Shown in pieces: positions 261 to 64,000 of a stretch of DNA of 64,000 nt. The stretch lies in contig NZ_CP101827.1 in assembly GCF_024498295.1 (NCBI RefSeq), positions 124,001 to 188,000 on the forward strand. The letters run 5' to 3'. The notes beneath the pieces are model-generated. The model had not been told where the DNA came from, did not search any database, and worked only from the letters and a program-made list of their open reading frames with translations. Position numbers and translations under genes: made by a program. Each line of letters opens with the position of its first letter. The stretch's first letter is position 1. The stretch is from Thermocaproicibacter melissae (GTDB lineage Bacteria; Bacillota; Clostridia; Oscillospirales; Acutalibacteraceae).

Positions 261-835
261 TCAATTTTCTACTATCGGTTCTTTCGGCCCTGCCTGTGCC
301 GGCATCAGGAAGGCCATGGAAGTTCCTTCGCCGAGTGCGCTTTTTACCACAATCGTGCCGCCGTTGTTCTCAACAATCCATTTCACAATGGCAAGGCCGA
401 GGCCCGAGGAGCTGGTCTTTCCGCGCGTGCGCGCGACGTCTGCCTTGTAAAAGCGGTCAAATATATGCGGGAGGTCCTGTTTCGAAATTCCGATGCCGGT
501 ATCCTCCACCGCGAGAACGACATGATCTTTTTCGCGCCTGCACAAGAAGGTGATGCTCCCGCCTTCCGGCGTATATTTTCGGCTGTTTTCGGCAATAGCG
601 CGCACTGCCTGCTTCATCATCGCGGGGTCAGCCGTCAGCATGACGTTCGGTTCAATGGACTCCGTTATTCTATGGTATTGTCGATGAGCCTTGTTTCCTC
701 GGCAAGGTCCTTCATCATATCCGACGCGCTGAAAAGCTCAGGGTGCACCTGTTGGCTGTGGCCGTCGGCACGGGCCAGAAACAAAAGGTTCTCCACCAAG
801 TGCTGCATGTCGCTGGCCTCTTCGATAATTTCTTT
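261..835 (-). pseudogene. Histidine kinase remnant, frameshifted, N-terminus deleted
   Basis: The 3' part codes 126 residues of a HATPase_c domain: N box AIAENSRKYTPEGG, G1 box VEDTGIGI, F box IFDRFYK and G2 box GLGLAIVKWIVE. Upstream, in another frame, lies the end of the dimerisation domain (EEASDMQHLVENLLFLARAD), which runs into a stop near 665. Restoring a single base near 676 joins the two frames (EETRLIDNT then HRITESIEPNV). The sensor region, membrane helices, HAMP and the phospho-accepting His are missing because the sequence runs directly into the response regulator. The kinase cannot be functional as read. Confidence 0.85.
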
Positions 836-1304
836 TTGTCAGCTGAATCGGAACACTGCCGTATGTAACGCTGCGTGCGCTGCAGTTTACGGTCAAATCT
901 CCCCAGTGAAGCTCCTGCAATTCACGGTTTCTGTCGTTTCCATGCTTTTTCAGCAGGACGCGTATGCGCGCCAAAAGTTCCTCAATGGCAAACGGTTTTG
1001 TCAGGTAATCGTCCGCACCGTTGTCTAATCCATTGACCTTATCCGCCACAGAATCCTTGGCCGTCAGCATGATGACCGGCGTTGTATTGGTGAGGCGAAG
1101 CCTCCTGAGGACTTCCATTCCGTCCATTCCGGGCATCATGATGTCGAGAATGATAAGATCAAACAGATTCTGCTGCGCAAGCTTCAGGCCGCTCACGCCG
1201 TCATAGGCCTTTTCCACCGAATACCCTTCGTGACAAAGCTCCAGCTCCAAAAAGCGCACGCTGTTGCGGTCGTCATCAATAACCAGGATCCTACCGTTTG
1301 CCAA
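738..1304 (-). pseudogene. OmpR-family response regulator, DNA-binding domain lost by deletion
   Basis: The receiver domain is intact: acidic pair in VIDDD near residue 10, phospho-acceptor Asp in LIILDIMMPGMDG near residue 54, Thr/Ser in MLTAKDS and Lys in LTKPFAIEE. The start codon is TTG. A linker and the first strands of an OmpR winged helix follow (WGDLTVNCSARSVTY, then PIQLTK). At the point where the winged helix should continue, around 831-840, the sequence jumps out of frame into histidine kinase dimerisation-domain sequence, so the last 30 or so residues are nonsense. The output domain is gone. This is probably one deletion that fused regulator and kinase; the receiver could still be made and act as a phosphate sink. 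Confidence 0.85.
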
Positions 1305-1335
1305 TCAGTCCATCGCCTTTCCATGCGGAGAACTA

Positions 1336-2058
1336 TCACTTCGTTGATTGCATTGATTGCGCTGATATATTTTCCTTGGAATGTTCTGTCAACTCTTCAA
1401 GAGTATCCTGCTCCAAACGCTGCACATACATCTTCGCGAATGTGTGGAAGAACTCCGCACTCAGCATATCCATTGAAAGAGTGGTGTCCTCTTCCGCTTT
1501 CGAGCTCAGCACGGTGGAAGAAGAATTCTGCGTGCCGGAAGTATACGCCGTTTCCGGCACGGAAAGATCCATGCCTGCGTAACGGAGCACCTTTTTCACA
1601 TAGTTCTGCGTCTCGGCATACGGAGGAACGCCGCCGTATTTGCGCACGGCACCGCTGCCTGCGTTATAGGCTGCTACCGCAAGCTTGGCATCCCCATGAA
1701 AGGAGGAAAGCAGCTGTCCGAGATATTTTGCGCCGCCCATGATGTTTTGTTCCGGGTCGAAGGAATCCTTTACGCCGAGTGCCGCGGCTGTGGACGGCAT
1801 GAGCTGCATGATGCCCTGCGCTCCGCAGCGGGATACCGCGTCGGCGCGAAAACCTGACTCTGCCTTGGCAACTGCTTTGAGCAGATTCACGGGAACATTG
1901 TAACGTGCCGCCGCTCTTTCAAAGATATCGTTCAAATCTGTGCTGTTTGGAACGCAGGCTTTTTTCAATGCTTCCGAAAAAGCCGCCGTCCGTTCTGGGG
2001 AAGCTTGTCCCTGAACCGGCTTCTGTACCGCTGTTGCGGAAGTGACACCCGTTACCAT
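1336..2058 (-). CDS. Lytic transglycosylase, SLT domain, without signal peptide
   Basis: A 240-residue protein predicted to cleave the MurNAc-GlcNAc bond of peptidoglycan. The SLT fold spans about residues 45-155, with catalytic Glu67 in AKAESGF, followed by GAQGIMQLMPSTA and AVAAYNAGSGAV, the usual SLT motifs. The start was chosen at MVTGVTS because GGAGGGACGGAGTT precedes it; a longer reading frame upstream has no ribosome binding site. There is no Sec signal, only a disordered 40-residue N-terminus, as in muramidases exported by the flagellar type III apparatus. That export route is inference. The C-terminal 60 residues are Ser/Thr-rich and of unknown role. Confidence 0.88.
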   Translation of the reverse strand: MVTGVTSATAVQKPVQGQASPERTAAFSEALKKACVPNSTDLNDIFERAAARYNVPVNLLKAVAKAESGFRADAVSRCGAQGIMQLMPSTAAALGVKDSFDPEQNIMGGAKYLGQLLSSFHGDAKLAVAAYNAGSGAVRKYGGVPPYAETQNYVKKVLRYAGMDLSVPETAYTSGTQNSSSTVLSSKAEEDTTLSMDMLSAEFFHTFAKMYVQRLEQDTLEELTEHSKENISAQSMQSTK

Positions 2059-9254: not shown

Positions 9255-10742
9255 TTATTTCTCAACCTTGAAGCGGAGCATATTCCAAGACTGCTTCGGC
9301 AGGAGGACGCTGCAGGTTTTGAAAGTTCCGGCAACCGGTGCGATTTCACGCGGGACAACACGGTTGGGGTTGTCGAACGTATTCTTCGCGTTCAAGTCGT
9401 CACCGTCCATGCAGAGATGCTCTGTCATGGTCAGGCTGCCGAACGAAGCAAGGTCGATGTCCACTTTCATCTCTTCGTCGCCGATGTTTAGGCAGAACAG
9501 CGTAACCGTGTCATCGTCACCGTGTACCGCCGTGGTGTAAAGCAGCGGGGTTTCGCCGTGCTTTGTTTCGATCTTCGGCGTTTTCACGACCGGCTGCAGC
9601 ACTGTGCCGCGCCCGTACTGAGAGAGATAACGGAACGGGTAGAAGATGGTCTGACGGATTGCGATTCCGCCCTTCTGCGTGCTGATTGGGGCAATGACGT
9701 TGACAAGCTGAGCGAGGCAGGCAATCTTTATGCGGTCGGCGTGGTTCAGAAGCGTCATTCCGAGGCCGGAGAACACGAGGGCATCCAGAAGCGAATAGTT
9801 ATCTTCTAGAATGGACGGAGCCTCCATCCAGTCATGGGGCTCGTCCTTGCTCTGATACCAAATATTCCACTCATCGAACGAGAACTTGAAGTCTTTCTTA
9901 CCGCGCTTTTCCGCCTTGACGTAATCTGCCGTTGCCGCGAGCGTGCGGATGAACGAATCCATATCGACGAAGGAAGCGAGGAAATCTAGGTCGTTGCCCT
10001 GATTTTCATAATAGCGGTGCATCGAGAGGTAGTCCGCGTGCTCATAGGTGTATTCCATAACCTTGCGGTCCCACTCCGGGAACGTAGGCATTTCACGGCT
10101 TGAGCTGCCGCAGACGACAACCTCAATGCTCGGGTCGACCCATTTCATGATTTTTGCCGCTTCGCGCGCTTTCTTGCCGTAGTCGTCAGCGTCGAGGTGG
10201 CAAATCTGCCAGGGGCCGTCCATCTCGTTTCCAATGCACCACAGGTGGATGTTCATCGGGTCTTTGTGGCCGTTCTTTGCGCGCAGGTCGCTCCAGTATG
10301 TGCCGCCGGGGAAATTGCAGTACTCCACCATTTCGCCTGCATCCTTCGGCGTTCCGGTACCCATATTGACGCTCGCCATAATCTTGGTACCCGCCTTGCG
10401 GCTCCAGTCATAGAACTCATCAATGCCGAACTGGTTGCTTTCAATCGTTTTCCATGCAAGGTCGAGTCTGCGCGGGCGGTCTTTCTTCGGGCCGATTCCG
10501 TCTTTCCAGTCGTAGCCGGAAAGAAAGTTGCCGCCCGGGTAACGCACATGGTCCACATGCAGCTCACGGACGAGCTTCAGAACATCCGTGCGAAAACCGT
10601 CCTCATCCGCTTCGGGATGGCCGGGTTCATAAATGCCGGTGTAAATGGCGCGGCCCAAGTGCTCGAGAAAGGAGCTGAACAACCTATCATCGGTGTGGGA
10701 AATTTCAAAATCCTTTTCAATGTGAAGCTTTGCTTCTTTCAT
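9255..10742 (-). CDS. abfA: Alpha-L-arabinofuranosidase, GH51
   Basis: A 495-residue retaining glycoside hydrolase that releases terminal L-arabinofuranose from arabinan or arabinoxylan oligosaccharides. The acid/base Glu is in WCIGNEMDGPWQ and the nucleophile Glu in SFDEWNIWY, the two hallmark GH51 motifs. HVRYPGGNFLSGYDWKDGIGP lies in the TIM barrel and the C-terminal beta-sandwich is present. There is no signal peptide, so the enzyme acts in the cytoplasm on imported oligosaccharides. GGGAGGATTTATC precedes the ATG. It could supply L-arabinose to the nearby isomerase/kinase operon, although the two are separated by prfC. Confidence 0.95.
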   Translation of the reverse strand: MKEAKLHIEKDFEISHTDDRLFSSFLEHLGRAIYTGIYEPGHPEADEDGFRTDVLKLVRELHVDHVRYPGGNFLSGYDWKDGIGPKKDRPRRLDLAWKTIESNQFGIDEFYDWSRKAGTKIMASVNMGTGTPKDAGEMVEYCNFPGGTYWSDLRAKNGHKDPMNIHLWCIGNEMDGPWQICHLDADDYGKKAREAAKIMKWVDPSIEVVVCGSSSREMPTFPEWDRKVMEYTYEHADYLSMHRYYENQGNDLDFLASFVDMDSFIRTLAATADYVKAEKRGKKDFKFSFDEWNIWYQSKDEPHDWMEAPSILEDNYSLLDALVFSGLGMTLLNHADRIKIACLAQLVNVIAPISTQKGGIAIRQTIFYPFRYLSQYGRGTVLQPVVKTPKIETKHGETPLLYTTAVHGDDDTVTLFCLNIGDEEMKVDIDLASFGSLTMTEHLCMDGDDLNAKNTFDNPNRVVPREIAPVAGTFKTCSVLLPKQSWNMLRFKVEK

Positions 10743-11484: not shown

Positions 11485-12285
11485 TTACATGGAAGCCGAT
11501 TTTTTCATGCAGGCGCGCATGGCTTCCATGACGGCACCGCGGAACCCCGAGCGTTCCAGTGAAGCTACCGCCTCAATCGTCGTTCCGGCCGGCGAGCAGA
11601 CCATGTCTTTGAGCTCACCGGGGTGCTTGCCGGTTTCCAGCATCATCTTGGCGCTGCCGAGAACCGACTGTGCCGCAAACGTATAGGCCTGTGCGCGCGG
11701 CAGTCCGCCCATGACGGCCGCGTCTGCCATCGCCTCGATGAACAGGAATACATAGGCCGGGGAGCTTCCGCTGACCGCGACTACGGCGTCCATCATGGAT
11801 TCGCTGACAACCTCTGTCTTTCCGAACGAATCAAACAAACGGCGGACTTCCTTGAGTTCCTCCGGCGTTACGAGTTGGTTGGGGCAGAGGGCGGTCATTC
11901 CCTCCCCCACAAGTGCCGGCGTATTCGGCATGGTGCGGATGAGTTTGAGATCGCGCCCGAACATATCGCTTATTTTTTCAAGGGATTTTCCCGGTGCAAG
12001 GCTGACAACAACAGTGGAATCCGGCACATCGTCCGAGATTTCCTCAATCACCTCGCTGAAATACTGAGGTTTCACCGCCAGCACGAGGATTTCGCACTGA
12101 GCAGCCGCTTCTTTGTTGCTGAGCGTTGTGGCGATGCCGTATTTTGCCTTGGCCTGCTCCAGCTTCGGGGATGTGTGGTTTGAAACGATTATATCTTCCG
12201 GCTTCAACGCTCCGGCGGAGAGAATTCCGCCGATGATGGCGTTCGCCATATTTCCGCATCCAATAAATCCAATCTTCTTTGTCAT
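11485..12285 (-). CDS. proC: Pyrroline-5-carboxylate reductase
   Basis: A 266-residue NAD(P)H-dependent enzyme for the last step of proline synthesis. The Rossmann motif GFIGCGNMANAIIGG is at residues 5-19; the family signature DMVCSPAGTTIEAVASLERSGFRGAVMEAM lies near the C-terminus; the active-site region SGSSPAYVFLFIEAMADAA is present. The start was set at MTKKIGFIG, preceded by GGGAGGATTCGCA; the longer frame upstream lacks a ribosome binding site. It ends MKKSASM. Upstream gene of a probable proC-niaR operon. Confidence 0.95.
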   Translation of the reverse strand: MTKKIGFIGCGNMANAIIGGILSAGALKPEDIIVSNHTSPKLEQAKAKYGIATTLSNKEAAAQCEILVLAVKPQYFSEVIEEISDDVPDSTVVVSLAPGKSLEKISDMFGRDLKLIRTMPNTPALVGEGMTALCPNQLVTPEELKEVRRLFDSFGKTEVVSESMMDAVVAVSGSSPAYVFLFIEAMADAAVMGGLPRAQAYTFAAQSVLGSAKMMLETGKHPGELKDMVCSPAGTTIEAVASLERSGFRGAVMEAMRACMKKSASM

Positions 12286-15391: not shown

Positions 15392-18034
15392 ATGAAAAAG
15401 AAAACACTTCGCAGATGCGGCCGCGTAGGGTGCCTCTGCCTAGCGGCAGCCGTTGCACTGACGGCGCCCTCTTCGGTTTACGCCAGTGCCGCAGGAACAA
15501 ATAAAGACGAAACCGTCTATGTCAACCTTGACTCCGCCGGAAATGTGCAGGAAACCATTGTTTCGGATTGGCTCCATTCCGACGATGCCACACAGCGCAT
15601 TACGGATAAATCCGACCTGAAAGACATTCAGAACGTCAAATCGGACGAAAAATCCATCCAGCAGGGCGACACCCTGACTTGGGTCCTTGATACCGACAAC
15701 ACCGGCAAAAACATTTACTATCAAGGAAAAACCGATAAGAAAACGCCGCTTGAAATTTCTATGTCTTATACACTGGACGGCAAAACCGTAACAGCTTCCG
15801 AAATTGCCGGAAAAAGCGGCAAGGTCACCATCAACCTCACTCTGAAGAACACTTCGGCTCAGACCGTGAATGTGAACGGCAAAGACGTTACCATGTACAC
15901 TCCCATGACCGCAATTGCCGTTGCCATTCTCCCTTCCTCCACATTCAAGAATGTCACCGTCAACTCCGGCAAGATTCTGTCGGACGGAAACAACCAGTTC
16001 GTTACGTTCCTCTCTATGCCGGGCCTCTCGGAAAGCCTCGGTCTGAAAGACTCCGCTTTCACGGAGCTGAGCAGCCTTGACCTGCCCGAAACGCTTACCA
16101 TCACCGCGGATGCGAAGGACTTCTCCCTGCCTTCCATTATGATTGGAGCAACGCCGAAGCTCGTGGACTCCGACAAGCTTTCGACCTCGGATGACATCGA
16201 CAAACTGGTCGACAGCCTGAAAAGCCTGAAAGACCTGCAGAACGACCTGAACAAGGTGGACCCGGATAAGGACATTAGCTCGCTGATTACGAATCCGGAC
16301 CACACAGCCGCTGTAAAGCTACTGATTGACGATGTCTTCGATTTCTACAATCTTGACACCAGCGACGTCACTCTTCTTACCAAATATATCAACGACAATA
16401 CTTTCTCCCTTGCCGACAAGGTTACATCTGACCTGACCAAGTCTGACCTGAAATATCTCTTTGACAGCAACGTGATCGGCAAGACTTCCACTTCTCTTTC
16501 CAAGATCGACATGAAAAAGGCAAACGCGCTGATGAACGACTATGCAACCCTCAGCACGTTTGATGCTTCCAAGCTCAACGGCGCCGCAAAGCTTCTTTCC
16601 GACAGCTCCGCGGCTTCCGGCAGCCTTTCCAAGCTCCTCTCCGATACTTCGGACCTTGTGACGCATGTGGACGCAAATTCCCTGAAAGTTCTCGGTGCTC
16701 TTTCAGACCCCCACATTCAGAATGACCTTATTTGCACGCTCACCGGCCTCAACACGCTGAAAGGAACCGTTGCAAGTTTGACGGGCGGTTCCGCAAACAT
16801 TTCGCTTGACCAGCAGGATGTTAAAGCATTCCTCGAATCCTATCTCTCACGGAATCTCGGAAACCTTGCTGTGCAGGCAATTGATTCTCATGCCGTAAAT
16901 GGTATGATTACCGTTGGCGGCCTTAGCAGCATTATGACAGGTCTCGGAGTGAGCGCAGATCAGCAGCAGAATTTGGTTACTGCTATGTGCACAATCAAAC
17001 CGACAACACTCGGAGCTGCGTTCGCTCAAAACGACCCTAATGCAATTGTTTCCGCAGCAGACGTTGAAACAGCTCTCGGCACGGTTCTTGCCGGTATGTC
17101 CGAAAGTCAACTCAAAGCGTTGGTCTCCCCGCTTGCCGCAAGCTTGGCGAATAATCTCACTGCCTCGGTAAATAACCTCCTGACAAACAGCAATAAGCTT
17201 CAGAATGACCTCACAAACGCCCTCGGCAGCAATTATGTTGACGTACTGAAAAGCGCGATGTCATCCGCCGCTTCTCTGAAAACCCTTGCCTATGACTTTG
17301 CAACGCTTCCCGCGCAGGATCAAGGCAAGGTTGTTGCCACGATGAAGGACGCACAGGCACTTCTCGCCGACAAGCAGACGCTCGCTTATCTCGGAACATG
17401 GGCACAGAAGCTTCCGGCCATGCAGAACGACCTGAAAGCAAACAGCGGCAACATTGCCGCCCTGAAACAGCTCATGCAGGTAACACAGGACACCAGACTC
17501 AAGAAGTCGCTGGCTTCCCTGCCTTCCCTCAGCAGTGACCTGAACAGCGTTTCCTCTCTTGTGTCGTCGATGAAGAAGGACTTCTCCAGAATTGACCGCC
17601 GCAAATTACCCGGCACAATGTCAACACTTTTGAAGATGCGCACGGATATCCTCAACAGCAAGGATGTTATGAACATCTGCCGCAAGGCGACCTCCGACGA
17701 CACGGTTTCCGTGTTCCGTGATGCTCTGAATCAGGCAGACAGCCTTATGAGCGACGCCGAAACCAACGGCTATCTCGATAAGATCGACAGCGCCGAAGAA
17801 CTTCTTGCCCGCAAGGACGAATACCTGAAGCTCGCCGATCAGTATCAGATTTTCACGGAAGCTGCCGACGGAGCTACCACTTCGGTGAAATTCGTCTACA
17901 AGACCGCGGAAATCAAGAAGCCGACCACTGAGAAAGCAACCCAGGCAGAAGTCTCCAATGAGACCCAGTCCGGCGGAATTGGCGCTTGGTTCCAGAACCT
18001 CTTCAAAAATATCCGCAACCTGTTCCACTTCTAA
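15392..18034 (+). CDS. Large secreted helical protein coupled to the MMPL exporter
   Basis: An 880-residue protein with a clear signal peptide (basic MKKKTLRRCGR, then a hydrophobic CLAAAVALTAP core, with predicted cleavage after VYA near residue 31). The N-terminal 250 residues look beta-rich (SYTLDGKTVTASEIAGKSGKVTINLTL; an Ala/Ile-rich stretch near residue 170). The rest, to about 830, is alanine/leucine/serine-rich and helical with many LKSLKDLQNDL-type repeats. It ends in an amphipathic tail, GAWFQNLFKNIRNLFHF, that could touch the membrane; no transmembrane helix follows the signal. Its function is unknown. Its place after mmpL suggests an extracytoplasmic partner of the exporter. Confidence 0.85.
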   Translation: MKKKTLRRCGRVGCLCLAAAVALTAPSSVYASAAGTNKDETVYVNLDSAGNVQETIVSDWLHSDDATQRITDKSDLKDIQNVKSDEKSIQQGDTLTWVLDTDNTGKNIYYQGKTDKKTPLEISMSYTLDGKTVTASEIAGKSGKVTINLTLKNTSAQTVNVNGKDVTMYTPMTAIAVAILPSSTFKNVTVNSGKILSDGNNQFVTFLSMPGLSESLGLKDSAFTELSSLDLPETLTITADAKDFSLPSIMIGATPKLVDSDKLSTSDDIDKLVDSLKSLKDLQNDLNKVDPDKDISSLITNPDHTAAVKLLIDDVFDFYNLDTSDVTLLTKYINDNTFSLADKVTSDLTKSDLKYLFDSNVIGKTSTSLSKIDMKKANALMNDYATLSTFDASKLNGAAKLLSDSSAASGSLSKLLSDTSDLVTHVDANSLKVLGALSDPHIQNDLICTLTGLNTLKGTVASLTGGSANISLDQQDVKAFLESYLSRNLGNLAVQAIDSHAVNGMITVGGLSSIMTGLGVSADQQQNLVTAMCTIKPTTLGAAFAQNDPNAIVSAADVETALGTVLAGMSESQLKALVSPLAASLANNLTASVNNLLTNSNKLQNDLTNALGSNYVDVLKSAMSSAASLKTLAYDFATLPAQDQGKVVATMKDAQALLADKQTLAYLGTWAQKLPAMQNDLKANSGNIAALKQLMQVTQDTRLKKSLASLPSLSSDLNSVSSLVSSMKKDFSRIDRRKLPGTMSTLLKMRTDILNSKDVMNICRKATSDDTVSVFRDALNQADSLMSDAETNGYLDKIDSAEELLARKDEYLKLADQYQIFTEAADGATTSVKFVYKTAEIKKPTTEKATQAEVSNETQSGGIGAWFQNLFKNIRNLFHF

Positions 18035-32733: not shown

Positions 32734-32906
32734 GCTGTCTCTTGTTATAATTTCTATAGAGAAATATAATAAGTAAATTTTAGGAAACCTTTACGATTCA
32801 TATTCCCCGTTTTTAACCAAAATACACCAAGCGAAGAGCGTCCCGTGCAATCTCTACCCCCCCCAAAAAAATCTCCGCGCCCTTTTCAGCGGCGGGAGCG
32901 GGTGAT

Positions 32907-54620: not shown

Positions 54621-55799
54621 TCAGCCTTTGAGGAGCGTGAGAACGTTCTGCGGCTGAGTATTCGCCTGAGCCAGCATTGCGTTTGCAGCCTGAGCAAGGA
54701 TCTGGTTCTTGGAGTACTGAACATATTCGTCAGTCATATCCACGTCGCGGATCGTGCTCTCAGCAGAGGTCAGGTTCTCGTTCATGGTGCTGAGGTTGTT
54801 AGCGGTGTGCTCGAGTTCGTTCTGAAGAGCACCGAGGTCAGCACGGGTTCTGTTGACAATCGCAACAGCGTCAGCGATGGTGGAAATTGCAGCCTCTGCA
54901 TGCTTCTGCGTATCAATCAACAGATTGTTGCCGTCAATTCCAAGGCCCTTGGAATCCATAGCATTGATGGAAAGCGTTGCGCGCTGGTCATCAACATTCT
55001 CTGCGCCAACCTGGAAGGTGAGAGGATCATGGCGGGTAGCGGTAATCGTTACATCCTGCGGATTGTCAGTAGTAGGAATGTCTGAACCCCTTGTAACAGT
55101 AATTGTAAAGTCCTTAAATTTCGCTGCATCTTCGGCAGAAGCCGTGTCGGCAATGACAGCTGTGAAGGTGTAAGCCGTACCGGTTTCGAATGTAGTAGCT
55201 GTTGTTGTAAAGCTAATGCCGGTGGGAGCAGTTCCGCTGAATTCAACTGTTACAGCACCATCGCTCTTAGTAGTCACTGTCAGAGTGAGCGTCTCTGAGG
55301 CTGTGAAATTGCCGCCGCTGACAACAGCCTTGGTAATGCCATCATCCGCTGCAGTAACGTCAGCTTTGTATACTGTTCCGAGGGAGCCGTCGAGAAGTTT
55401 GATCTCGTTGAAGTTCGTGGAATTGGCGATACGGTCAATTTCCGTCTTCAGGTGGTCAACTTCCTTCTGCAGGTTCGCACGGTCGGTATCCTTGTAGGTG
55501 CCGTTTGCGGACTCGACAGCCAGAGTGTTCATTCTCTGCAGGATAGCGGAGGTCTCGTTCAGGCCGCCTTCTGCTGTCTGTACAAGGCTGATGCCGTTCT
55601 TGGTGTTGTCTTCTGCCTGGGAGAGACCGTTGATCTCTTTGCGCATTTTTTCAGAAACTGCAAGGCCTGCAGCGTCATCTGCTGCGCTGTTGATACGGTA
55701 GCCGGAAGACAGCTTCTGGATGTTCTTGCTGACAGCGCTTTCATTGGTCTTTAATCTGTTGGCCGCATTGAGAGCGGTAATATTGTGCTGGATACGCAT
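54621..55799 (-). CDS. hag: Flagellin
   Basis: A 392-residue filament subunit exported by the flagellar type III system. The conserved D0/D1 N-terminus is MRIQHNITALNAANRL through LSSGYRINSAADDAAGLAVSEKM; the D1/D0 C-terminus includes NELEHTANNLSTMNENLTSAESTIRDVDM and ends AMLAQANTQPQNVLTLLKG. A Thr/Ser-rich variable domain occupies about 150-265 (TASETLTLTVTTKSD; GTAPTGISFTTTATTF), a plausible target for O-glycosylation by the adjacent GTs. AAGGAGGAAAGATTTT precedes the ATG. It has its own sigma-28 promoter and a leader of about 170 nt with CsrA-type sites. Confidence 0.97.
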   Translation of the reverse strand: MRIQHNITALNAANRLKTNESAVSKNIQKLSSGYRINSAADDAAGLAVSEKMRKEINGLSQAEDNTKNGISLVQTAEGGLNETSAILQRMNTLAVESANGTYKDTDRANLQKEVDHLKTEIDRIANSTNFNEIKLLDGSLGTVYKADVTAADDGITKAVVSGGNFTASETLTLTVTTKSDGAVTVEFSGTAPTGISFTTTATTFETGTAYTFTAVIADTASAEDAAKFKDFTITVTRGSDIPTTDNPQDVTITATRHDPLTFQVGAENVDDQRATLSINAMDSKGLGIDGNNLLIDTQKHAEAAISTIADAVAIVNRTRADLGALQNELEHTANNLSTMNENLTSAESTIRDVDMTDEYVQYSKNQILAQAANAMLAQANTQPQNVLTLLKG

Positions 55800-55800
55800 A

Positions 55801-55867
55801 AAATCTTTCCTCCTTGATTTTTCCCGCAGACTTTTGCCCTGCGGGTGGAAGAGATTCCATTCTCTTC
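55801..55867 (-). promoter_or_regulatory. Flagellin leader with two hairpins and probable CsrA sites
   Basis: On the minus strand a GAAGAGA/TCTCTTC stem displays the loop ATGGAA, a GGA-in-loop structure as in CsrA binding site 1. A second hairpin CCCGCAG/CTGCGGG stands between it and the ribosome binding site CAAGGAGGAAAG, which carries the other GGA motif. csrA and fliW are the next genes upstream. Confidence 0.65.
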
Positions 55868-55976
55868 TCGTTTGTTTTTATGATCCGACCGGGAAAGCCG
55901 CTTTCTACATCCGAACTCGCGGGCCCAGCGACTTCGGACTGGAGAAAACTGCCGCCCGTTTTGGAAACCACCTATA

Positions 55977-56003
55977 ATATCGGCTCGGCTGCTGAAAACT
56001 TTA
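55977..56003 (-). promoter_or_regulatory. Sigma-28 (SigD) promoter of flagellin
   Basis: On the minus strand TAAA, exactly 15 bp, then GCCGATAT; one base from the full consensus TAAA-N15-GCCGATAA. Confidence 0.9.
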
Positions 56004-56039
56004 GGGTGTTTTGAATATTTCCCAGAAAGATTTCTATTT

Positions 56040-56270
56040 TTATCGTTTTTTAAGTGCATTTTTTAACTCATCCATCGCTTCTCTGCCGGAAACGGTGCTC
56101 GCCTCACGGTTAAGCTCCCGTGCATCCGCCAGCTCCTTGCGCAGAATTGGCACGCCCTTCGGCGCTTTAATGCCAATTTTTACACGGTCTGCGCCCACTT
56201 CGGTTACAATGACTTCAATGTCGTCGCCGATGAGGATGGACTCCGACTTTTTTCGCGAGACGATTAGCAT
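56040..56270 (-). CDS. csrA: Carbon storage regulator CsrA
   Basis: A 76-residue RNA-binding translational regulator. MLIVSRKKSESILIGDDIEVIV, GADRVKIGIKAPKGVPILRKELAD: the beta-strand dimer fold with the RNA-contacting Arg in the ILRKEL segment, and a longer C-terminal helical tail as in Firmicutes. In B. subtilis it blocks flagellin translation by binding the hag leader. It starts 2 nt after fliW stops, so the two are co-translated. Confidence 0.97.
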   Translation of the reverse strand: MLIVSRKKSESILIGDDIEVIVTEVGADRVKIGIKAPKGVPILRKELADARELNREASTVSGREAMDELKNALKKR

Positions 56271-56272
56271 TT

Positions 56273-56707
56273 CTACTGCCCTCCCGTCTCAGCGAACAAC
56301 CGGTAACGAAGCGGGTAATCTCCATCTTCCAAAATAACCTGCATTCCCACGCGGTTTTTCACGTTAATCACAATGGGGCTTTTCAAGCTGACAACGGAAT
56401 CCTCCAGTTTTTTGCGGATAACCGCTACCGCCAGCCAGCAAAGGTCTTCCTCTGCAGGGTCTCCGAGCAGATGCAGCTCGCGTTCCTGAAGCTTCGGTGC
56501 GTAGTCGGGCATAATGAGAAACGGGTCCACCACAATGAGGGTGGGATACGGAGAATATGCCGCCTGAAGTGACCAAAGAAACTGTGCGTCGTCTTCCTGA
56601 AGCAAAATGAAGTCTTTTACATCTTCAAAACCGTAAATCCCTTCGGGAAAATGAATGATAATCTTTTCTTGCTTCTCTTGGGGCTTGTCTTCCATTTTGT
56701 TGTCCAT
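56273..56707 (-). CDS. fliW: Flagellar assembly factor FliW
   Basis: A 144-residue antagonist of CsrA that also binds flagellin: free flagellin titrates FliW, releasing CsrA to stop flagellin synthesis. Family segments: HFPEGIYGFEDVKDFIL near residues 20-36, SPYPTLIVVDPFLIMPDY, VAVIRKKLEDSVVSLKSPIVINVKNRVGMQVILED near the C-terminus. ATG at MDNKMED was chosen because GGGGGAG abuts an earlier in-frame ATG too closely. Directly upstream of csrA. Confidence 0.94.
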   Translation of the reverse strand: MDNKMEDKPQEKQEKIIIHFPEGIYGFEDVKDFILLQEDDAQFLWSLQAAYSPYPTLIVVDPFLIMPDYAPKLQERELHLLGDPAEEDLCWLAVAVIRKKLEDSVVSLKSPIVINVKNRVGMQVILEDGDYPLRYRLFAETGGQ

Positions 56708-56731
56708 AAAATGTACCATCTCCCCCGGGGG

Positions 56732-57064
56732 TCAGCCCCGGGCACATAATTTACGGCCTTCTTCCTGAGGCGGGCAGAAATTTTCGGAAGGCGTAATATA
56801 CTCGGGCGGAAGCCCCGTTCGACTGACAGCCTTCAAAAAAAGAGGAATCAGTTTGCCGCACTGCCCCGGTGAAGAGGACTGATTTTCCTTGTTTTGCCGG
56901 AAATCATACAGGATCCGGTCCAATTCACATTCCGCCTGCAGAGTCTTTTTGTCTTTTTTTACCGGAACGAAGATTGTGGGAATATAAACAAGTTCGGAGC
57001 CACCGTCCGTTTCTTCGGCAAGGGGCTCCGTAGGGTTATTTTTGTCCTCAATAATCAGAAGCAC
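56732..57064 (-). CDS. Unknown protein between flgL and fliW
   Basis: A 110-residue soluble protein with a GTG start (GGCGGAATCA in front). It has a short hydrophobic start LLIIED, a proline-rich middle (VYIPTIFVPVKKDK), charged helix ECELDRILYDFRQNKEN and a C-terminal region with prolines and three cysteines (GQCGKLIPLF; NFCPPQEEGRKLCARG). No family recognised. Position inside the flagellar operon, with 44 nt before it and about 24 after, suggests a flagellar assembly or regulatory role. Confidence 0.6.
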   Translation of the reverse strand: MLLIIEDKNNPTEPLAEETDGGSELVYIPTIFVPVKKDKKTLQAECELDRILYDFRQNKENQSSSPGQCGKLIPLFLKAVSRTGLPPEYITPSENFCPPQEEGRKLCARG

Positions 57065-57108
57065 TGATTCCGCCGACCTTTCCTAAAAAATTTCGGTGCG
57101 GCGTCTGC

Positions 57109-58164
57109 TTATCTCAGGTAATCAATCAAGCTCTGCTGTAGAATCTGCGCGCCGACTTTCAGCGCGGCATTGTAGCAGTAAAGCTGGCTATAATACGTCT
57201 CAATGGCATCGGTAGGCTCTACAAATTCCACTTCGTTGTCCTTCTCGGCCAAGTTGGTTTTCAATTCTGTAATGTATTCTGAAGTGTTGTTGAGGAACTG
57301 CATTCGGTTGCCCAACTGTGCCTGCCCTGCCTCAAAATTATCCTGGGAGGCGTCGAATGCGGAAGTGAGCTTTTCGATTTCTTCCAGCTCAGCCGTGCTC
57401 AACTGCTGCTCGTTTGCACTGTTCTTGAGTATACCGGCAATTCGGGAAAGAATGCTGCACACGTTATTCGGCACGCCGTCGCTGTTTGTACCGTAACCGA
57501 GGAAGCTGATGCCCGGCATTGCCTTATTGTAAGCGCTTTGGTCCTCTATAACTCCGTTTTTATCCATTGTCATGCCGAGGCCGATGTCGACATACACCTT
57601 TTCATTCGCAAGATCCTCAAGGCTCACCGACGGGGTAGAACCATCTTTCATTTTTCCCGTGTCAACATCCACACCGCGGTAATACAGCTTGTCCTTGGAA
57701 GGGTCGCTCGCATCTTTTACAAGCTCAAACGGAGCTTTCCCTGCGCCGGAACCGCTGAAAAGGTAACTGTCGGCATATTTTGTGTTCATCTGCGAAACGA
57801 TGCTGTCGCGTATGCTGAGAAGCTGATCTGCCAGCGCAAGGCGGTTTTCCGCGGCCATAGTGCCGTTGATTGCTTTCAGCACCGTGGTTCCGCTTGCCTG
57901 CGTGAGCATCGCATCAATGTTCTGCAGAATCTTTTCGCCAGTAGTAAGCGCACTGTTAATATTGGTAATATTGGAAGAATAATTGTCGTTAAGGCTCATC
58001 TGCCAGTGAATGTCAGCGGTTTGGGAAGCCGCAAGGGGATCCTCCGACGGGCGGTCAAACCTGCGGTAGTCATAGGCATGGCGCATAGCTTTGTTTAGGG
58101 TAGCGTATGCGTCGCTGACATCGCTCTTATAGCGTGAAAGCATCATCTGCGAAGTGATTCTCAT
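57109..58164 (-). CDS. flgL: Flagellar hook-filament junction protein FlgL
   Basis: A 351-residue flagellin-like junction protein (HAP3). N-terminus MRITSQMMLSRYKSDVSDAY and FDRPSEDPLAASQTADI; a central part with NTKYADSYLFSGSG, which is diagnostic of FlgL; C-terminus AALKVGAQILQQSLIDYLR. It lies 6 nt after flgK, as usual, and joins the hook to the filament together with FlgK. Confidence 0.95.
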   Translation of the reverse strand: MRITSQMMLSRYKSDVSDAYATLNKAMRHAYDYRRFDRPSEDPLAASQTADIHWQMSLNDNYSSNITNINSALTTGEKILQNIDAMLTQASGTTVLKAINGTMAAENRLALADQLLSIRDSIVSQMNTKYADSYLFSGSGAGKAPFELVKDASDPSKDKLYYRGVDVDTGKMKDGSTPSVSLEDLANEKVYVDIGLGMTMDKNGVIEDQSAYNKAMPGISFLGYGTNSDGVPNNVCSILSRIAGILKNSANEQQLSTAELEEIEKLTSAFDASQDNFEAGQAQLGNRMQFLNNTSEYITELKTNLAEKDNEVEFVEPTDAIETYYSQLYCYNAALKVGAQILQQSLIDYLR

Positions 58165-58170
58165 TTTCGA

Positions 58171-59862
58171 TTATCCCCTTCCCACAAGGCCCATGTTGTT
58201 GATGATTGTCTGCAGACATTCGTCCACAGCGGTCATAAAGCGTGAAGATGCATTCAGCGACTGGGTATACTGAACAATGCTGATGGCTTCGTCATCTAAG
58301 CTGACGGAGGAAAGTTCCTGCCGGCTGTTGTCGATATTGTTCAACAACTGGGAATTCGTGTTGTCAATGGTCTGCATGCTGTTTGTGTTCAGTGCAAGCA
58401 TTGCGCTTACACTTGCGAATGCTTTCTGGAGTGTTCCGTTGAAAACAATCGCTCCGGTATCCGTGGTAAGAGTAATTTTGTCATCTTTCAGTTTTGCAAT
58501 CATGGTCAGGATATTGGGGCATGCACCGCTGTTGTCGTCACCGGAATTGGAAACATCTTTGTTAGTTGTCAGCACGCCGTCTTTCCATGTGGATGCTACA
58601 TGGATATTCGCTGCTGTAATTCCCTTTGTAATGTCATCCAAGGTACCTGTTTCGACAGAACCGCTGAAGAGAATCTGCTGTTCCGCAGGGATTGTATTTC
58701 CCGAAGAATCCTTCTTGTTTGGGTTATAATTCAGATTGTTCAGCGTAGATGCGAGTTCTCTCGCAATCGTGTCAAGGTACTGCGAATAAAATCCGATTCC
58801 GCGCGGCGAAGTCGAATCTCCGTCATAATCTCCGCTGTCGTTCAGAAGGGCAAGGCTGGCGGCAAATGCACCCGTAGCAATGTCGTCATTCGTCATTCCC
58901 TGAAGCTCCGGATTGCCGTCGGCATCGGTCGGGATAGTTCCATTGACCGAAAGCTTTGTCAGGTGCAGCTGGGTAATACCGAAGGACTTGCCCTCTTCGG
59001 GCGCATCCTGCGTAATGGTAAACTGTGCATAATCACTGCCGTCCGCACCGCCGATAAGCTCGTAATTTCCGGCGAGTTTGTTTCCGTTGGCATCCGCAAG
59101 ATATACCTTTGTCGTATCAACGCTTTTTCCGTTATCCAACTTCTCGGATTCTTGAACCACTTTAATGGGAACGTATTTGGAGAGCTTGTCCAAAAGCAGG
59201 TTCTGCTGATCCTTCAGCTCCAGAACGGGGGAACCGGAAAGCTCGGCGTCCTTAATGCGTTTGTCCAGCGAAGCAATACTCTTGAGAAGGTCGTTGACCG
59301 TGTTCACATTATACTCCTCAAGATGATTGTATTGCTGCTCGCGTATGGTGTTCAGCGCTCTGGCTGCCGTGTTGAGCTGGGTTGCGAGCGATTTGGCGGC
59401 TTCACGCACATTGCCTTCGGAAACGCTGCTGTACGAAGAAGTAATATTCTGTAGCTGCGTTAGGAAATTGCTGAACTGATTGCTCAGCACATCAATGACA
59501 GAAACGTTTGAGGACGAAGAAGCGGTGGTCGTGGTGGTAAAAATGTCCTCCATGTCATACAACGTGTCCACCCACTGTGCGCTTTCACCGCTCTTTGCGT
59601 TCTGTGTGCGGTATTCACTGTCGAGAAATGCGTCGCGCAGCTGGCTGATGGAATCCACGCTGACACCGGTTCCAACCGAGGTTCCCAAAGAAGCCCACTG
59701 GCCGCCGGAATCCGAAGGCGGAAGGGAGTTTTGGTCAACCCTTTGGCGGGTATATCCCTCGGTGTTGGCATTGGTGATATTCTGGCCGGTGATATTCAGG
59801 GCCGCCTTAGAAGCCTGAACACCGCTTCTCGCGATATACAGGCCTTCAAACATCGAACTCAA
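58171..59862 (-). CDS. flgK: Flagellar hook-associated protein FlgK
   Basis: A 563-residue HAP1. N-terminus SMFEGLYIARSGVQASKAAL then NITGQNITNANTEGYTRQRV, the rod/hook-family motif; a long coiled and variable centre; C-terminus with SVSLDDEAISIVQYTQSLNASSRFMTAVDECLQTIINN. Length is typical of Firmicutes. AACGGAGGAATTAACTTG precedes the start. Member of the flgM-flgN-flgK-flgL operon. Confidence 0.95.
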   Translation of the reverse strand: MSSMFEGLYIARSGVQASKAALNITGQNITNANTEGYTRQRVDQNSLPPSDSGGQWASLGTSVGTGVSVDSISQLRDAFLDSEYRTQNAKSGESAQWVDTLYDMEDIFTTTTTASSSSNVSVIDVLSNQFSNFLTQLQNITSSYSSVSEGNVREAAKSLATQLNTAARALNTIREQQYNHLEEYNVNTVNDLLKSIASLDKRIKDAELSGSPVLELKDQQNLLLDKLSKYVPIKVVQESEKLDNGKSVDTTKVYLADANGNKLAGNYELIGGADGSDYAQFTITQDAPEEGKSFGITQLHLTKLSVNGTIPTDADGNPELQGMTNDDIATGAFAASLALLNDSGDYDGDSTSPRGIGFYSQYLDTIARELASTLNNLNYNPNKKDSSGNTIPAEQQILFSGSVETGTLDDITKGITAANIHVASTWKDGVLTTNKDVSNSGDDNSGACPNILTMIAKLKDDKITLTTDTGAIVFNGTLQKAFASVSAMLALNTNSMQTIDNTNSQLLNNIDNSRQELSSVSLDDEAISIVQYTQSLNASSRFMTAVDECLQTIINNMGLVGRG

Positions 59863-59904
59863 GTTAATTCCTCCGTTCAGCTTTCAAGTATGGCTGTAAA
59901 CGAT

Positions 59905-60387
59905 TCAAACCTTTTTGGAAAAAGTGGTCTCGTGTCCTAATCTCTCTCCAAGATGATTTCCATATATTTTTTTTAACTCCGGCTGATTTTCCATTCTAGA
60001 AAGAATCTTTGACACACGGTTCATCTTTGCCCGCAGCATGCCGGCAGAACGCTCATTCACTGCTTTTACATCCGAAACAGTGGCGGAAAGGTCTTCATAA
60101 AGCTTCTGCATGGCTTCCTTTCGCGTAGGGTCAACCTCCTCAATCAGCTGCCGGAAGGTTGCCTGCGTACAGCCCAATTTCTCCAAAAGTTTTACACGGT
60201 CTTTTTCAAAGCCGCGGGCTTTCAAGGTAAAAGCCTGTTCCCGTTTTAGGGAAGCATCTAGCTTCTGAAAATTACCAGAAACGATAATTTCATATTTTTC
60301 ACGCTCAAACGCAAGAAACTCACGGTAAAAAGCAAGCATCCGCTTAAAAAAACGAATCAGTTCGTCTGCCTGTTCCGCTGCGATCAT
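59905..60387 (-). CDS. flgN: FlgN-family flagellar chaperone
   Basis: A 160-residue all-helical protein (FFKRMLAFYREFLAFEREKYEIIVSG; KREQAFTLKARGFEKDRVKLLEKLG) with the FlgN coiled-coil pattern. FlgN keeps FlgK and FlgL soluble until export. Sequence similarity is weak in this family, but position between flgM and flgK and the length support the call. The start follows GGGGAGGAGTTTTCGGA. Confidence 0.85.
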   Translation of the reverse strand: MIAAEQADELIRFFKRMLAFYREFLAFEREKYEIIVSGNFQKLDASLKREQAFTLKARGFEKDRVKLLEKLGCTQATFRQLIEEVDPTRKEAMQKLYEDLSATVSDVKAVNERSAGMLRAKMNRVSKILSRMENQPELKKIYGNHLGERLGHETTFSKKV

Positions 60388-60410
60388 TCCGAAAACTCCT
60401 CCCCGCGTGA

Positions 60411-60713
60411 TTATCTGCCGAGAATATCAGCAATCTCCTCTTCATTGACGGAATACATACCGGAAGCGATGCGGTTCTTCAGTTCATTCAGCGTAGCGCT
60501 GTCCACCGGCCGCCTCAGCTCACGCAGGATGTTGTTCCGGGTCTCCTTCAAAACAGAGCGCTGCGTTTTGTGCGCGGAAATCTCAATTGTATCCATCTTC
60601 CCGCGAAGCACTTTTCCGAAAGACTCAGCACGCTCGTTTTGGATGGATTCCTCCTTGCAGGCAGAGGTCTGCTGTATATCTGAAAAAAAGCTGTTAATGC
60701 CTTTTATCTCCAT
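60411..60713 (-). CDS. flgM: Anti-sigma-28 factor FlgM
   Basis: A 100-residue protein. The N-terminal half is polar and probably unfolded; the C-terminal half, DTIEISAHKTQ then LRRPVDSATLNELKNRIASGMYSVNEEEIADIL, matches the sigma-binding helices of FlgM. It holds SigD inactive until the hook is complete and FlgM is secreted. First gene of its operon, with a perfect SigD promoter, which gives negative feedback. Confidence 0.93.
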   Translation of the reverse strand: MEIKGINSFFSDIQQTSACKEESIQNERAESFGKVLRGKMDTIEISAHKTQRSVLKETRNNILRELRRPVDSATLNELKNRIASGMYSVNEEEIADILGR

Positions 60714-60952: not shown

Positions 60953-61113
60953 GATGATTGTAAATTCGAATATTATGAGAAGTTTTTATATAATTTGTAT
61001 ATAAAATAAATTTCTTTAATCGAATAAATAGCGGGGTTTTTATGCAACTTGTGCGTATATTTCCTCGCTTTTCTTTTTTGGGGCTATTTTATTAATGAAA
61101 GGAGCGCCTGTCC

Positions 61114-61500
61114 ATGAATTGGATTGATACGATTTCTTCAACTTTGCTAGAAAAAGACCTAGACGGGCTTTGGGTCCGCCAGCAGGCAATTTCCGACAAT
61201 ATGGCAAACGTTGAAACTCCCGGCTATAAAGCAAAGCGAGTATCCTTTGAGGATCAGCTTCTTAAAGAACTCGCCTCCCCCGGCAGCAATCCGCAGGCCG
61301 TTTCCGAAGCGATTTCTTCCGTCACCCCCGAAGTTACGGAAGACGAAGGAGAAACATTCCGCGAAGACGGAAACGGTGTTGACCTGGAGCAGCAGATGAT
61401 TGACATGGTCCGCACAACAACGAATTACTCCTATTCGCTGCGGCAAATGTCGGATTATTTTGCTCGGTTGCAGACAGCGATTTCTGGAAACGTAAAATAA
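61114..61500 (+). CDS. flgB: Flagellar basal-body rod protein FlgB
   Basis: A 128-residue proximal rod protein. The rod motif is AISDNMANVETPGYKAKRVSFEDQL at residues 25-49, and the C-terminal DLEQQMIDMVRTTTNYSYSLRQMSDYFARLQTAI shows the heptad pattern that packs in the rod. GAAAGGAGCGCCTGTCC precedes the ATG. First gene of a flgB-flgC-fliE-fliF operon, the usual order at the start of the large clostridial fla/che operon. Confidence 0.95.
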   Translation: MNWIDTISSTLLEKDLDGLWVRQQAISDNMANVETPGYKAKRVSFEDQLLKELASPGSNPQAVSEAISSVTPEVTEDEGETFREDGNGVDLEQQMIDMVRTTTNYSYSLRQMSDYFARLQTAISGNVK

Positions 61501-61525
61501 TAACAAATGAAAGGAGTTTTTCTCC

Positions 61526-61979
61526 ATGGCCTTTTTGAGTTCCCTCGACATCAGCGGTTCTGGGCTGACTGCAAGCCGGCTCCGCATGGATGTTATCGCT
61601 GAAAATCTTTCCAACGCCGAGACCACCAGGACAAGTGAGGGGGGGCCCTTACCGCCGCAAAATGGTGGTATATGAGTGTGCAGATACTGCACAGACCTTC
61701 CGCAACATGCTGGAAGCCCAGGTGAACGGAAACGGAGATGCCGCTGTTCCGCAGGGTGTAAAGGTAACCGGTATCGTGGAAGACCAGACTCCGTTTAATG
61801 TTGAATATGACCCTACTAATCCGGACGCCAATGCTCAGGGATATGTGGAAAAACCGAATGTTGATTTAATACAGGAAACAACCGATATGATGGCCGCTTC
61901 GCGCGCATACAACGCAAACCTCACGGCTTTCGACGCTGTAAAAAATATGGCCACTAAGGCCCTTGAACTTGGGAAGTGA
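61526..61979 (+). pseudogene. flgC: Flagellar basal-body rod protein FlgC, frameshifted at a run of seven G
   Basis: The gene opens normally with AAAGGAGTTTTTCTCC before ATG and reads MAFLSSLDISGSGLTASRL, then MDVIAENLSNAETTRTSEGG. At GGGGGGG (61639-61645) the frame is lost and a TGA is met after 49 codons. With six Gs the frame continues PYRRKMVVYECADTAQTFRN to VDLIQETTDMMAASRAYNAN and LTAFDAVKNMATKALELGK, giving a normal 150-residue FlgC. FlgC is essential for the rod, so as written the cell would be non-flagellated. Causes could be a sequencing error, a slipped-strand phase variant, or ribosomal slippage. Confidence 0.93.
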
Positions 61980-61984
61980 ATGAG

Positions 61985-62302
61985 ATGAACACAATTCAGC
62001 CAATTGTTCCAATTGAGTCAATTGAATCTCTGCATCAGGCTGAAAAGACCTCCGCGGCAACGGAAAATACGGGTTCTGTTGCGATTCCGTTTCAGTCGTT
62101 GTTTGAAGATGCCATTGAAAATGTGAAAGAAACGAGTGCTGTTCTCGACAGCGAAATTACGAAGCTGGCAACCGGCCAGACGGATGATCTTCACGCTGCG
62201 CTCATTGCATCTCAAAAAGCTACTCTCTCCGTTAACATGGTTGTTCAGCTGCGAAATAAACTTCTCGACGCATACAAGGAAATCTCGAATATCAGTGTCT
62301 GA
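61985..62302 (+). CDS. fliE: Flagellar hook-basal body protein FliE
   Basis: A 105-residue protein at the MS ring-rod junction. The C-terminal two-thirds has the family pattern: IPFQSLFEDAIENVKETSAVLDSE, ITKLATGQTDDLHAALIASQKATLSVNMVVQLRNKLLDAYKEI. The ATG was chosen 6 nt after the flgC stop; a GTG at 61976 overlapping flgC is the alternative. Confidence 0.94.
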   Translation: MNTIQPIVPIESIESLHQAEKTSAATENTGSVAIPFQSLFEDAIENVKETSAVLDSEITKLATGQTDDLHAALIASQKATLSVNMVVQLRNKLLDAYKEISNISV

Positions 62303-62336
62303 ATAATCTATGGAGAAGGGCGGTCCGTTCTCACCA

Positions 62337-64000
62337 ATGAACGAGCAAATAAAGAAAGCAATCGAAGCCATCAAGGCTTTTTGGGGCAACCTCACGAAAA
62401 AAGCGAAAATAATCTTATTTTCCTGCCTTGGTGCTGCATTGTTAATCGCCATAATCACCGCTGTACTCATGAACAGAACTCAGTACACCGTTCTCTATTC
62501 GGGCATTGATAACAGTGAAGCACAGGAAATTACAAATGAGCTGCGCTCCATGAATATAGGCTATCAATACAAAGACGGTACCATATATGTAGAGAAATCC
62601 AGCGAAAACTCGGCGCGTATGCAGCTTGCAAACGAAGGCTATCCAAAATCTGCCCCTAACTACGATTTCTTCACGCAAAATGTGGGTGTCATGACGACCG
62701 ATGAGGAACGCAAGATTATCGAGAGGTATCAGCTCGAAACGCGTCTCGGCTCCGTCATTGAAACGCTCGACTCGGTCAATAAGGCGTATGTAACGATTAG
62801 TCTTCCGAACAGCACCGACTACGCATGGGAAGATAATAAGAGCGGAGCTTCTGCGTCGGTTGCCATTAGCCTTGCAAAAGGAAAAACGCTTGACGCGAAG
62901 CAAGTCAACGGCATTAAACAGCTCGTTGCCAAAAGCGTACCGAACCTTTCGGTCGATGATGTTACCGTCATGGACACCTCCACCGGCGAAGAACTGACAT
63001 CTTCGGAAAGTTCTTCGGAAGCCTCGCATTCCATGCAGATTACGCTTTCCGAGTTCAAGCTGAAAATTGAAAAGCAGTATGAAGAAAGCTTGGAAAACAA
63101 AATTATGAACCTTCTCGCTCAGGCGTACGGAAGGAACAACCTCAGCGTAAGCGTAAAAAGCAAAATGGACCTTGACAAGAAAATTGAGGATATTATTACA
63201 TACACTCCTTCCACCAGTGACGGCAAAGGCGTTGTCAGCCACTCGGAAGAGACAATTGAAACGACATCACCCAGTTCCGCTGTCGGCGGTGTTGCGGGAA
63301 CCACAAGCAATGTGGACCACACAACGACAACCTATCCCGGCGTGACCGTAAGCAACGGCGTCATCACGACAAAGGACAGCAAAACTTACGATTATCTCGT
63401 CAGCAAAGTGCAGCAGCAGGTTCAGAGCGACGCTGCCGCTCTTGATGACCTCACGGTTGCTGTTGTCATCAACACCGACAACATGACCGATGACAAAAAG
63501 CAGGAAGTCACGGAACTGGTTGCAAACGCAGCTGCCGTAGACATCAGTAAAGTAGCAATCATGGCGGCACCGATTAACTCTACTGTTTCACAAGCTGAAA
63601 CACAGGCCGTTTCCCTTACAGACCTTCTCGGTTCCATGGCAAACAACCAGCTTGTTCTGATTATTCTGGGTGTACTTCTCTTACTGGTCATTCTCCTCAT
63701 TGTTCTTTTGGTGAGTGAGCGCAGAAAGGCAAGACGTGAGAAGATGCTTGCAAACCTGCAGCCTTATGCTCCTGAGGAACTGCCAGAGGAAGAAGTGGAA
63801 GAAGGCACCGAAGAAGAGGAAGAAGCAGAAAACGGCAACGAAGAGGAGGAATCCGAAGAGGAAGCGGAAGAATCCGAAGAAGCTCCGGCAGAGGAATCTC
63901 AGCCGGCAGAGGAACAAGAAGATGAGGATGACATGCAAATCGAATCCATTGAAGCCATCCGCAATGCCGCAAACGGCAAGGAACAGCGCGTCAAGACCGA
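62337..64000 (+). CDS. fliF: Flagellar MS-ring protein FliF, 3' end beyond window
   Basis: About 554 residues are visible and the frame is open at the right edge. TM1 is at about 23-44 (KIILFSCLGAALLIAIITAVL); ring-building YscJ/FliF domains follow (YTVLYSGIDNSEAQEI; APNYDFFTQNVGVMTTDEERK; VNKAYVTISLPN); then the FliF C domain and TM2 at about 438-459 (LVLIILGVLLLLVILLIVLLV). After TM2 comes an unusually acidic Glu-rich stretch, about 480-530, before the start of the FliG-binding tail. MNEQIKK was chosen as start, with GGAGAAGGGCGG upstream; an in-frame ATG at 62310 is possible. The basal body is built on this ring. Confidence 0.94.
   Translation, partial: MNEQIKKAIEAIKAFWGNLTKKAKIILFSCLGAALLIAIITAVLMNRTQYTVLYSGIDNSEAQEITNELRSMNIGYQYKDGTIYVEKSSENSARMQLANEGYPKSAPNYDFFTQNVGVMTTDEERKIIERYQLETRLGSVIETLDSVNKAYVTISLPNSTDYAWEDNKSGASASVAISLAKGKTLDAKQVNGIKQLVAKSVPNLSVDDVTVMDTSTGEELTSSESSSEASHSMQITLSEFKLKIEKQYEESLENKIMNLLAQAYGRNNLSVSVKSKMDLDKKIEDIITYTPSTSDGKGVVSHSEETIETTSPSSAVGGVAGTTSNVDHTTTTYPGVTVSNGVITTKDSKTYDYLVSKVQQQVQSDAAALDDLTVAVVINTDNMTDDKKQEVTELVANAAAVDISKVAIMAAPINSTVSQAETQAVSLTDLLGSMANNQLVLIILGVLLLLVILLIVLLVSERRKARREKMLANLQPYAPEELPEEEVEEGTEEEEEAENGNEEEESEEEAEESEEAPAEESQPAEEQEDEDDMQIESIEAIRNAANGKEQRVKT

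Follow-up and report, generated by a model that had tools for sequence, protein, structure and literature searches.

Short homopolymers in which a change of one base truncates a flagellar protein are known from several bacteria. Passages of PMC3930126 and PMC7677240 describe such tracts in fliP of Helicobacter pylori, in flhA of Campylobacter coli, and in flgR and flgS of C. jejuni, and a passage of PMC3930126 describes reversion of the homopolymer change in flgR. The G tracts described as hypervariable in C. jejuni are at least 8 long in the corresponding part of PMC7677240, where indels were also found in runs shorter than 8. The same source, in its part on passaged Campylobacter, reports that motility was lost in culture through small indels of flagellar genes, and among its C. 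jejuni passage mutants are indels of one base in homopolymers of short or medium length, such as a five-G run in motA. A comparable case outside the flagellum is the A6/A7 tract of Listeria inlA, a short poly(A) near the 5' end of the gene; a change of one base there cuts the protein short, and excerpts of PMC2831843 describe the tract as polymorphic among isolates, with reversion measured. A broken frame can also be bridged during translation. In the relevant part of PMC4519876, CC[C/U]-[C/U] is given as prone to +1 shifting, with CCC-C at codon 2 in E. coli shifting by up to 1%, and a rare codon directly after the slippery site can raise the propensity to shift.

We analyzed a run of seven G in the rod gene flgC of Thermocaproicibacter melissae. 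The genome has 1,960,795 bases in two contigs, C1 and C2, and is 99.97% complete; by the window we mean the whole 64-kb stretch C1:124001-188000. The features around the run, in window coordinates, are as follows.

61526 to 61675, plus strand: 5' piece of flgC from ATG to an early TGA, 49 residues by translation, matching TIGR01395 positions 1-42 with 48.4 bits
61639 to 61645, plus strand: the G7 run, taking in the third base of codon 38 and all of codons 39 and 40 in the upstream frame
61646 to 61651, plus strand: CCC TTA immediately 3' of G7, a slippery Pro codon of the CC[C/U]-U type (as classed in part of PMC4519876) and then a Leu codon that codon usage marks as rare
61647 to 61979, plus strand: the rest of flgC (3' piece), read in the +1 frame as 110 residues up to the normal stop, matching TIGR01395 positions 38-137 with 105.8 bits
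61114 to 61500, plus strand: flgB, open frame, TIGR01396 above cut-off
61985 to 62302, plus strand: fliE, open frame, TIGR00205 above cut-off
62310 to 64000, plus strand: presumably fliF, which we name from cluster order; an open frame that leaves the window and stays open to C1:188085
54621 to 60713, minus strand: divergent arm with flagellin, FliW, FlgL, FlgK and a weak FlgM match by NCBIfam scans, frames open; by position we take csrA and flgN to lie here as well

Translation from the ATG at 61526 gave 49 residues ending EGGPLPPQNGGI, followed by TGA at 61673-61675, and the +1 frame from 61647 read PYRRKMVVYE...LELGK up to a stop at 61977-61979. The FlgC model TIGR01395 (137 positions) was covered from end to end only by the two pieces together and by no continuous reading frame, and the 3' piece alone exceeded the cut-off (105.8 vs 102.1 bits). 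The sequence-only reading had proposed that a G7 run at 61639-61645 puts flgC out of frame after codon 40 and leaves the rest of the gene intact in the +1 frame, and all of this was borne out: codon 38 is GAG, codons 39 and 40 are GGG GGG, codon 41 is CCC, and the +1 frame is open to 61979. The limits of both translations place the switch of frame between 61639 and about 61650. The same reading had attributed the break to a single extra G in the run. One extra base is indeed present; that it is a G within the run does not follow, since an adjoining position is equally good. Judged by the sequence and the peptide E-G-G-P-Y, the surplus base is not pinned to G7. The in-frame site of the nearest relative, Ruminococcaceae bacterium HV4-5-B5C, reads CAG GGG GGA CCC TAC (genome G001 is identical there), and by a by-eye count a surplus base immediately 3' of G7 requires fewer substitutions against it. 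A slip inside the run would still be more probable: runs slip, and among the Gly codons of our sample GGC is the most frequent (44.9%, with GGG at 11.7%). The tract lies within the first third of the flgC coding region, and a one-base change of its length cuts short or restores a gene that is otherwise intact.

The run belongs to a flagellar and chemotaxis cluster of 42.8 kb (about C1:178,621-221,379), of which it is the longest G/C run. NCBIfam scans covered 28 cluster proteins besides the two flgC pieces, with part of the matches under the curated cut-offs; fliF and the remaining ORFs were read as open frames only. The names obtained were flagellin, FliW, FlgL, FlgK, FlgM (weak), FlgB, FliE, FliG, FliH, FliI, FliJ, FlgD, a hook/rod protein, FliM, FliY, FliP, FliQ, FliR, FlhB, FlhA, FliA, two FlgF/FlgG-type rod proteins, FliD, FliS, CheA and CheB, and a 160-aa cluster ORF had no NCBIfam match. 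The cluster had led us to suspect that stator genes were missing, an idea rejected when motA and motB domains were found outside it, at C1:1,506,416 and 1,506,911; their frames, of 304 and 298 aa, are open. Nor was there any sign that the flagellar system as a whole is decaying, the other flagellar genes read being open frames. The claim of the sequence-only reading that the rest of the flagellar locus is undamaged thus holds for the cluster as read and for motA/motB, but one of the four chemoreceptor genes, identified by their signalling domains, is frameshifted; it lies on contig C2. No second flgC was found in the genome: the 3' piece has one match there, and the FlgC model has three, with the two flgC pieces among the matches listed. 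flgC appears to be single-copy. The start of fliE lies 5 bases past the flgC stop, so translation of fliE, possibly coupled to that of flgC, may drop as well. The idea that the region came from a phage found no support, a megablast search of 61100-62300 against a phage collection giving no match, and Rfam found two tRNAs only in the window.

Comparison with relatives suggests that a broken flgC is uncommon in the order. A FlgC profile search of 394 genomes drawn from the order gave a match in 73, of which 69 were over the cut-off and 4 weak only. In 67 of the 69 the match spans position 1-3 to 135-137, and it is from these full-length matches that we judge such breaks to be uncommon; in a further one (G103) the match is partial and covers positions 2-108, and only the present genome has FlgC as two pieces in different frames. 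When 59 relatives were searched, 13 had a match and the flgC frame was unbroken in each of them. A comparison of the run in close relatives, which the sequence-only reading had proposed, was made with a motif script at 48 relative loci; 32 of them had the motif (three genomes twice) and 16 did not. No G/C run longer than 6 occurred among the 32 loci, the longest (6) being in two entries of one genome, that of HV4-5-B5C, and 26 of the 32 had a run of 2 or 3. HV4-5-B5C is the nearest named relative by FlgC (81% identity across the 3' piece). Against it, the 38 codons of the 5' piece have a pN/pS of 0.143 and the 109 codons of the 3' piece one of 0.145, with synonymous sites near saturation, and flgB, fliE and part of fliF gave 0.20-0.27, above both flgC pieces. 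By this measure there is no sign of drift in the 3' piece. Both halves being equally and strongly constrained, the break is either very recent or unreal.

We also counted G/C tracts. The window is neither enriched nor poor in G7, containing 3 overlapping hits where shuffled sequence gave a mean of 4.76 and at least 3 in 80 of 100 shuffles, and the whole genome contains 10 overlapping G7/C7 hits in 8 tracts of at least 7, the flgC run being one of the eight. In 302 long ORFs (from the window and stretches L021-L040), 13 G/C runs of at least 6 were found vs 50.0 +/- 7.0 in synonymous shuffles (n=40, lowest 37), so that such homopolymers are about fourfold rarer than in the shuffles; for runs of at least 7 the result was weaker (2 vs 9.9 +/- 2.7, lowest 1). 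A G8 run at window 32857-32864, minus strand, is one of two in the genome and lies outside clearly coding ORFs; we take the gene downstream of it to be alcohol-dehydrogenase-like. The MutS_I domain lies in a long open frame of 877 aa and the MutL_C domain in one of 641 aa. An explanation by a mutator background was dropped on account of these two frames, and slippage is expected to be rare because of them.

Six of the eight tracts of at least 7 lie in coding-like ORFs, and five of these six ORFs are open across the run (one tract being near the ORF 5' end), suggesting that the assembly is not generally wrong at such runs. Five small frameshifts, the one in flgC included, were noted in a sample of 483,378 bases (the window, 20 stretches and C2; about a quarter of the genome). 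Three are at homopolymers (G7, C6 and A7) and two away from long runs. The four outside flgC are the following.

L041 (C2), about 17740-17760, minus strand: chemoreceptor split at A7, its dCache domain in two frames (profile positions 9-106 and 113-238)
L040, about 12031-12041, minus strand: apparent frame change at C6 in a small ORF of unknown family, from a frame scan
L039, about 10066-10090 (C1 about 1,730,070): ABC transporter ATPase with a shift just 5' of Walker A, at T3; the match of the 3' piece begins at profile position 12, and none was found in Pfam for the 5' piece
L032, 16584-16625 (C1 about 1,036,600): TspO/MBR-like gene with a shift away from long runs, its pieces matching positions 2-57 and 50-143

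The shift in the TspO-like gene amounts to two extra bases or one missing base, and this gene and the ABC ATPase may be real pseudogenes. Ab initio codon and dicodon scans for frameshifts were insensitive, leaving the flgC break unflagged and returning mostly hits that looked like gene overlaps or frame shadows, and a scan of ORF pairs, filtered by ribosome-binding site, found the TspO break and missed flgC. Since the scans missed flgC, the frameshifts above are examples and do not give a rate. Two further observations were made in this survey. Near window 667-1372, minus strand, a regulator/kinase pair shows a larger disruption: by eye, a response-regulator frame is followed by sequence resembling a histidine kinase in other frames, as though the segment that links the two genes had dropped out. 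On contig C2, L041 9615-10100 holds a CRISPR-like repeat array (LQFTPVRGRK is repeated in the translation), beside genes that we take to be type III CRISPR genes from their look.

Our preferred reading, to which we give a probability of roughly 0.5, is that flgC of the real chromosome suffered a recent spontaneous one-base insertion and is an ordinary loss-of-function allele. By the most likely route, a replication slip would have lengthened G6 to G7; the insertion would cut the proximal rod protein FlgC to 49 residues, and the complete rod would not be built. Such an allele would arise where motility is unselected, for example in culture, and reversion by a further slip would be possible and should be rare. 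FlgC is required for the rod and for all structures outside the rod. Because flgC is apparently single-copy and its product is needed for the rod, no working flagellum is expected in cells that carry this allele. The truncation, the failure to find a second flgC, the open frames of the other flagellar genes read and the equal constraint on both halves are observed; the reality of the surplus base, its identity as a G and the loss of motility we infer. Our search of the literature found nothing on the motility of the organism, the main text of PMC9600882 containing neither 'flagell' nor 'motil', and the HV4-5-B5C genome paper (PMC5887030) is silent on motility. Two points speak against a recent mutation: three of the five sampled small frameshifts are at homopolymers, a pattern that sequencing errors also give, and with MutS and MutL domains in long open frames slippage should be rare.

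The main rival, likely enough to be taken seriously though less probable in our view than a recent mutation, is that the chromosomal flgC is intact and that the extra base came from base calling or consensus at the G run. A one-base change at one of the genome's eight G/C runs of at least 7, in a gene that is otherwise intact and constrained, among flagellar genes that read open and in an order where full-length FlgC is usual (67 of 69 genomes over the cut-off), would fit an error; the sampled quarter holds further small frame changes at C6 and A7 runs, and two contigs for 1.96 Mb suggest long reads. An error explains less well why five of six coding-like ORFs with a tract of at least 7 stay open and why two of the five small frameshifts lie away from long runs. 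That the G run varies in length at a high rate and toggles flagellum assembly within the population seems unlikely to us. The position of the tract, in the first third of a gene that a length change truncates or restores, suits such a switch, and the H. pylori fliP, C. coli flhA and C. jejuni flgR/flgS tracts (in the passages of PMC3930126 and PMC7677240) are precedents for it; but G/C runs of at least 6 are depleted in the long ORFs (13 vs 50.0 +/- 7.0), no relative locus has a run over 6 and 26 of 32 have 2 or 3, mismatch-repair domains are in long open frames, and the hypervariable tracts of C. jejuni are described, in that part of PMC7677240, as at least 8 against the present G7, though indels occur there in shorter runs too. 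Nothing indicates that the run was selected as a switch, and the idea of a conserved, selected switch is not supported. The sequence-only reading had offered a switch, slippage and error side by side. One-off slippage and error are retained, and a biologically important reversible switch finds no support, because the run is unshared, G/C tracts are scarce, and MutS and MutL lie in open frames.

The allele might also be fixed, with some FlgC still made by +1 frameshifting at GGG-GGG-CCC-UUA, which would restore exactly EGGPYRRK; we consider this very improbable. FlgC is needed in few copies per basal body, a need that could fit a low efficiency of shifting. The junction does carry the slippery class CC[C/U]-[C/U] as CCC-U (as defined in part of PMC4519876), the rare TTA follows it (4.9% of Leu codons in the sample), and a slip on GGG-G or CCC-U would yield the normal peptide. 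However, codon 2 is called the most shift-prone position in that part of PMC4519876 and the flgC site is codon 41; the figure of 1% being for codon 2, any low-level FlgC would be small in amount. In addition, flgC is in frame in the relatives, which have no conserved recoding site, so that recoding here would be an accident and not a conserved device, and the peptide EGGPYRR by itself explains most of the features. We give scarcely any credence to the further idea that a slip at GGGGGGG-CCC-UUA makes FlgC the limiting, translation-tuned step for the number of flagella, with the run length setting the dose instead of simply turning assembly on or off.

If the base is real, as in the preferred reading of a recent insertion, one would expect the sequenced strain to be non-motile although its set of flagellar genes looks complete, and annotation alone should not be taken as evidence of 'motile'. 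If it is an error, the other frameshifts of the same assembly call for caution. If it were a true switch, a rod gene would join the known phase-variable flagellar genes, against which the scarcity of G/C tracts argues.

Compared with the described systems, the flgC run resembles those of fliP, flhA and flgR/flgS in being a short homopolymer where a one-base change truncates a flagellar protein (as passages of PMC3930126 and PMC7677240 have it). Unlike those tracts, which were seen to vary, it is known from one assembly; moreover, it is not common to the relatives, it sits in a genome with few G/C tracts, and the gene affected, flgC, codes for a rod protein. It resembles the Listeria inlA tract of PMC2831843, as described in part of that source, in being short, near the 5' end and able to truncate the protein by one base; inlA, however, has a poly(A) tract with polymorphism among isolates and measured reversion, whereas flgC has a G run in one assembly. 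Set beside the C. jejuni passage mutants of PMC7677240, the present case comes from another phylum and another gene, and from one assembly rather than an evolved population; what it shares with them, on the description in that part of the source, is a single-base indel in a short or medium homopolymer, as in the five-G run of motA.
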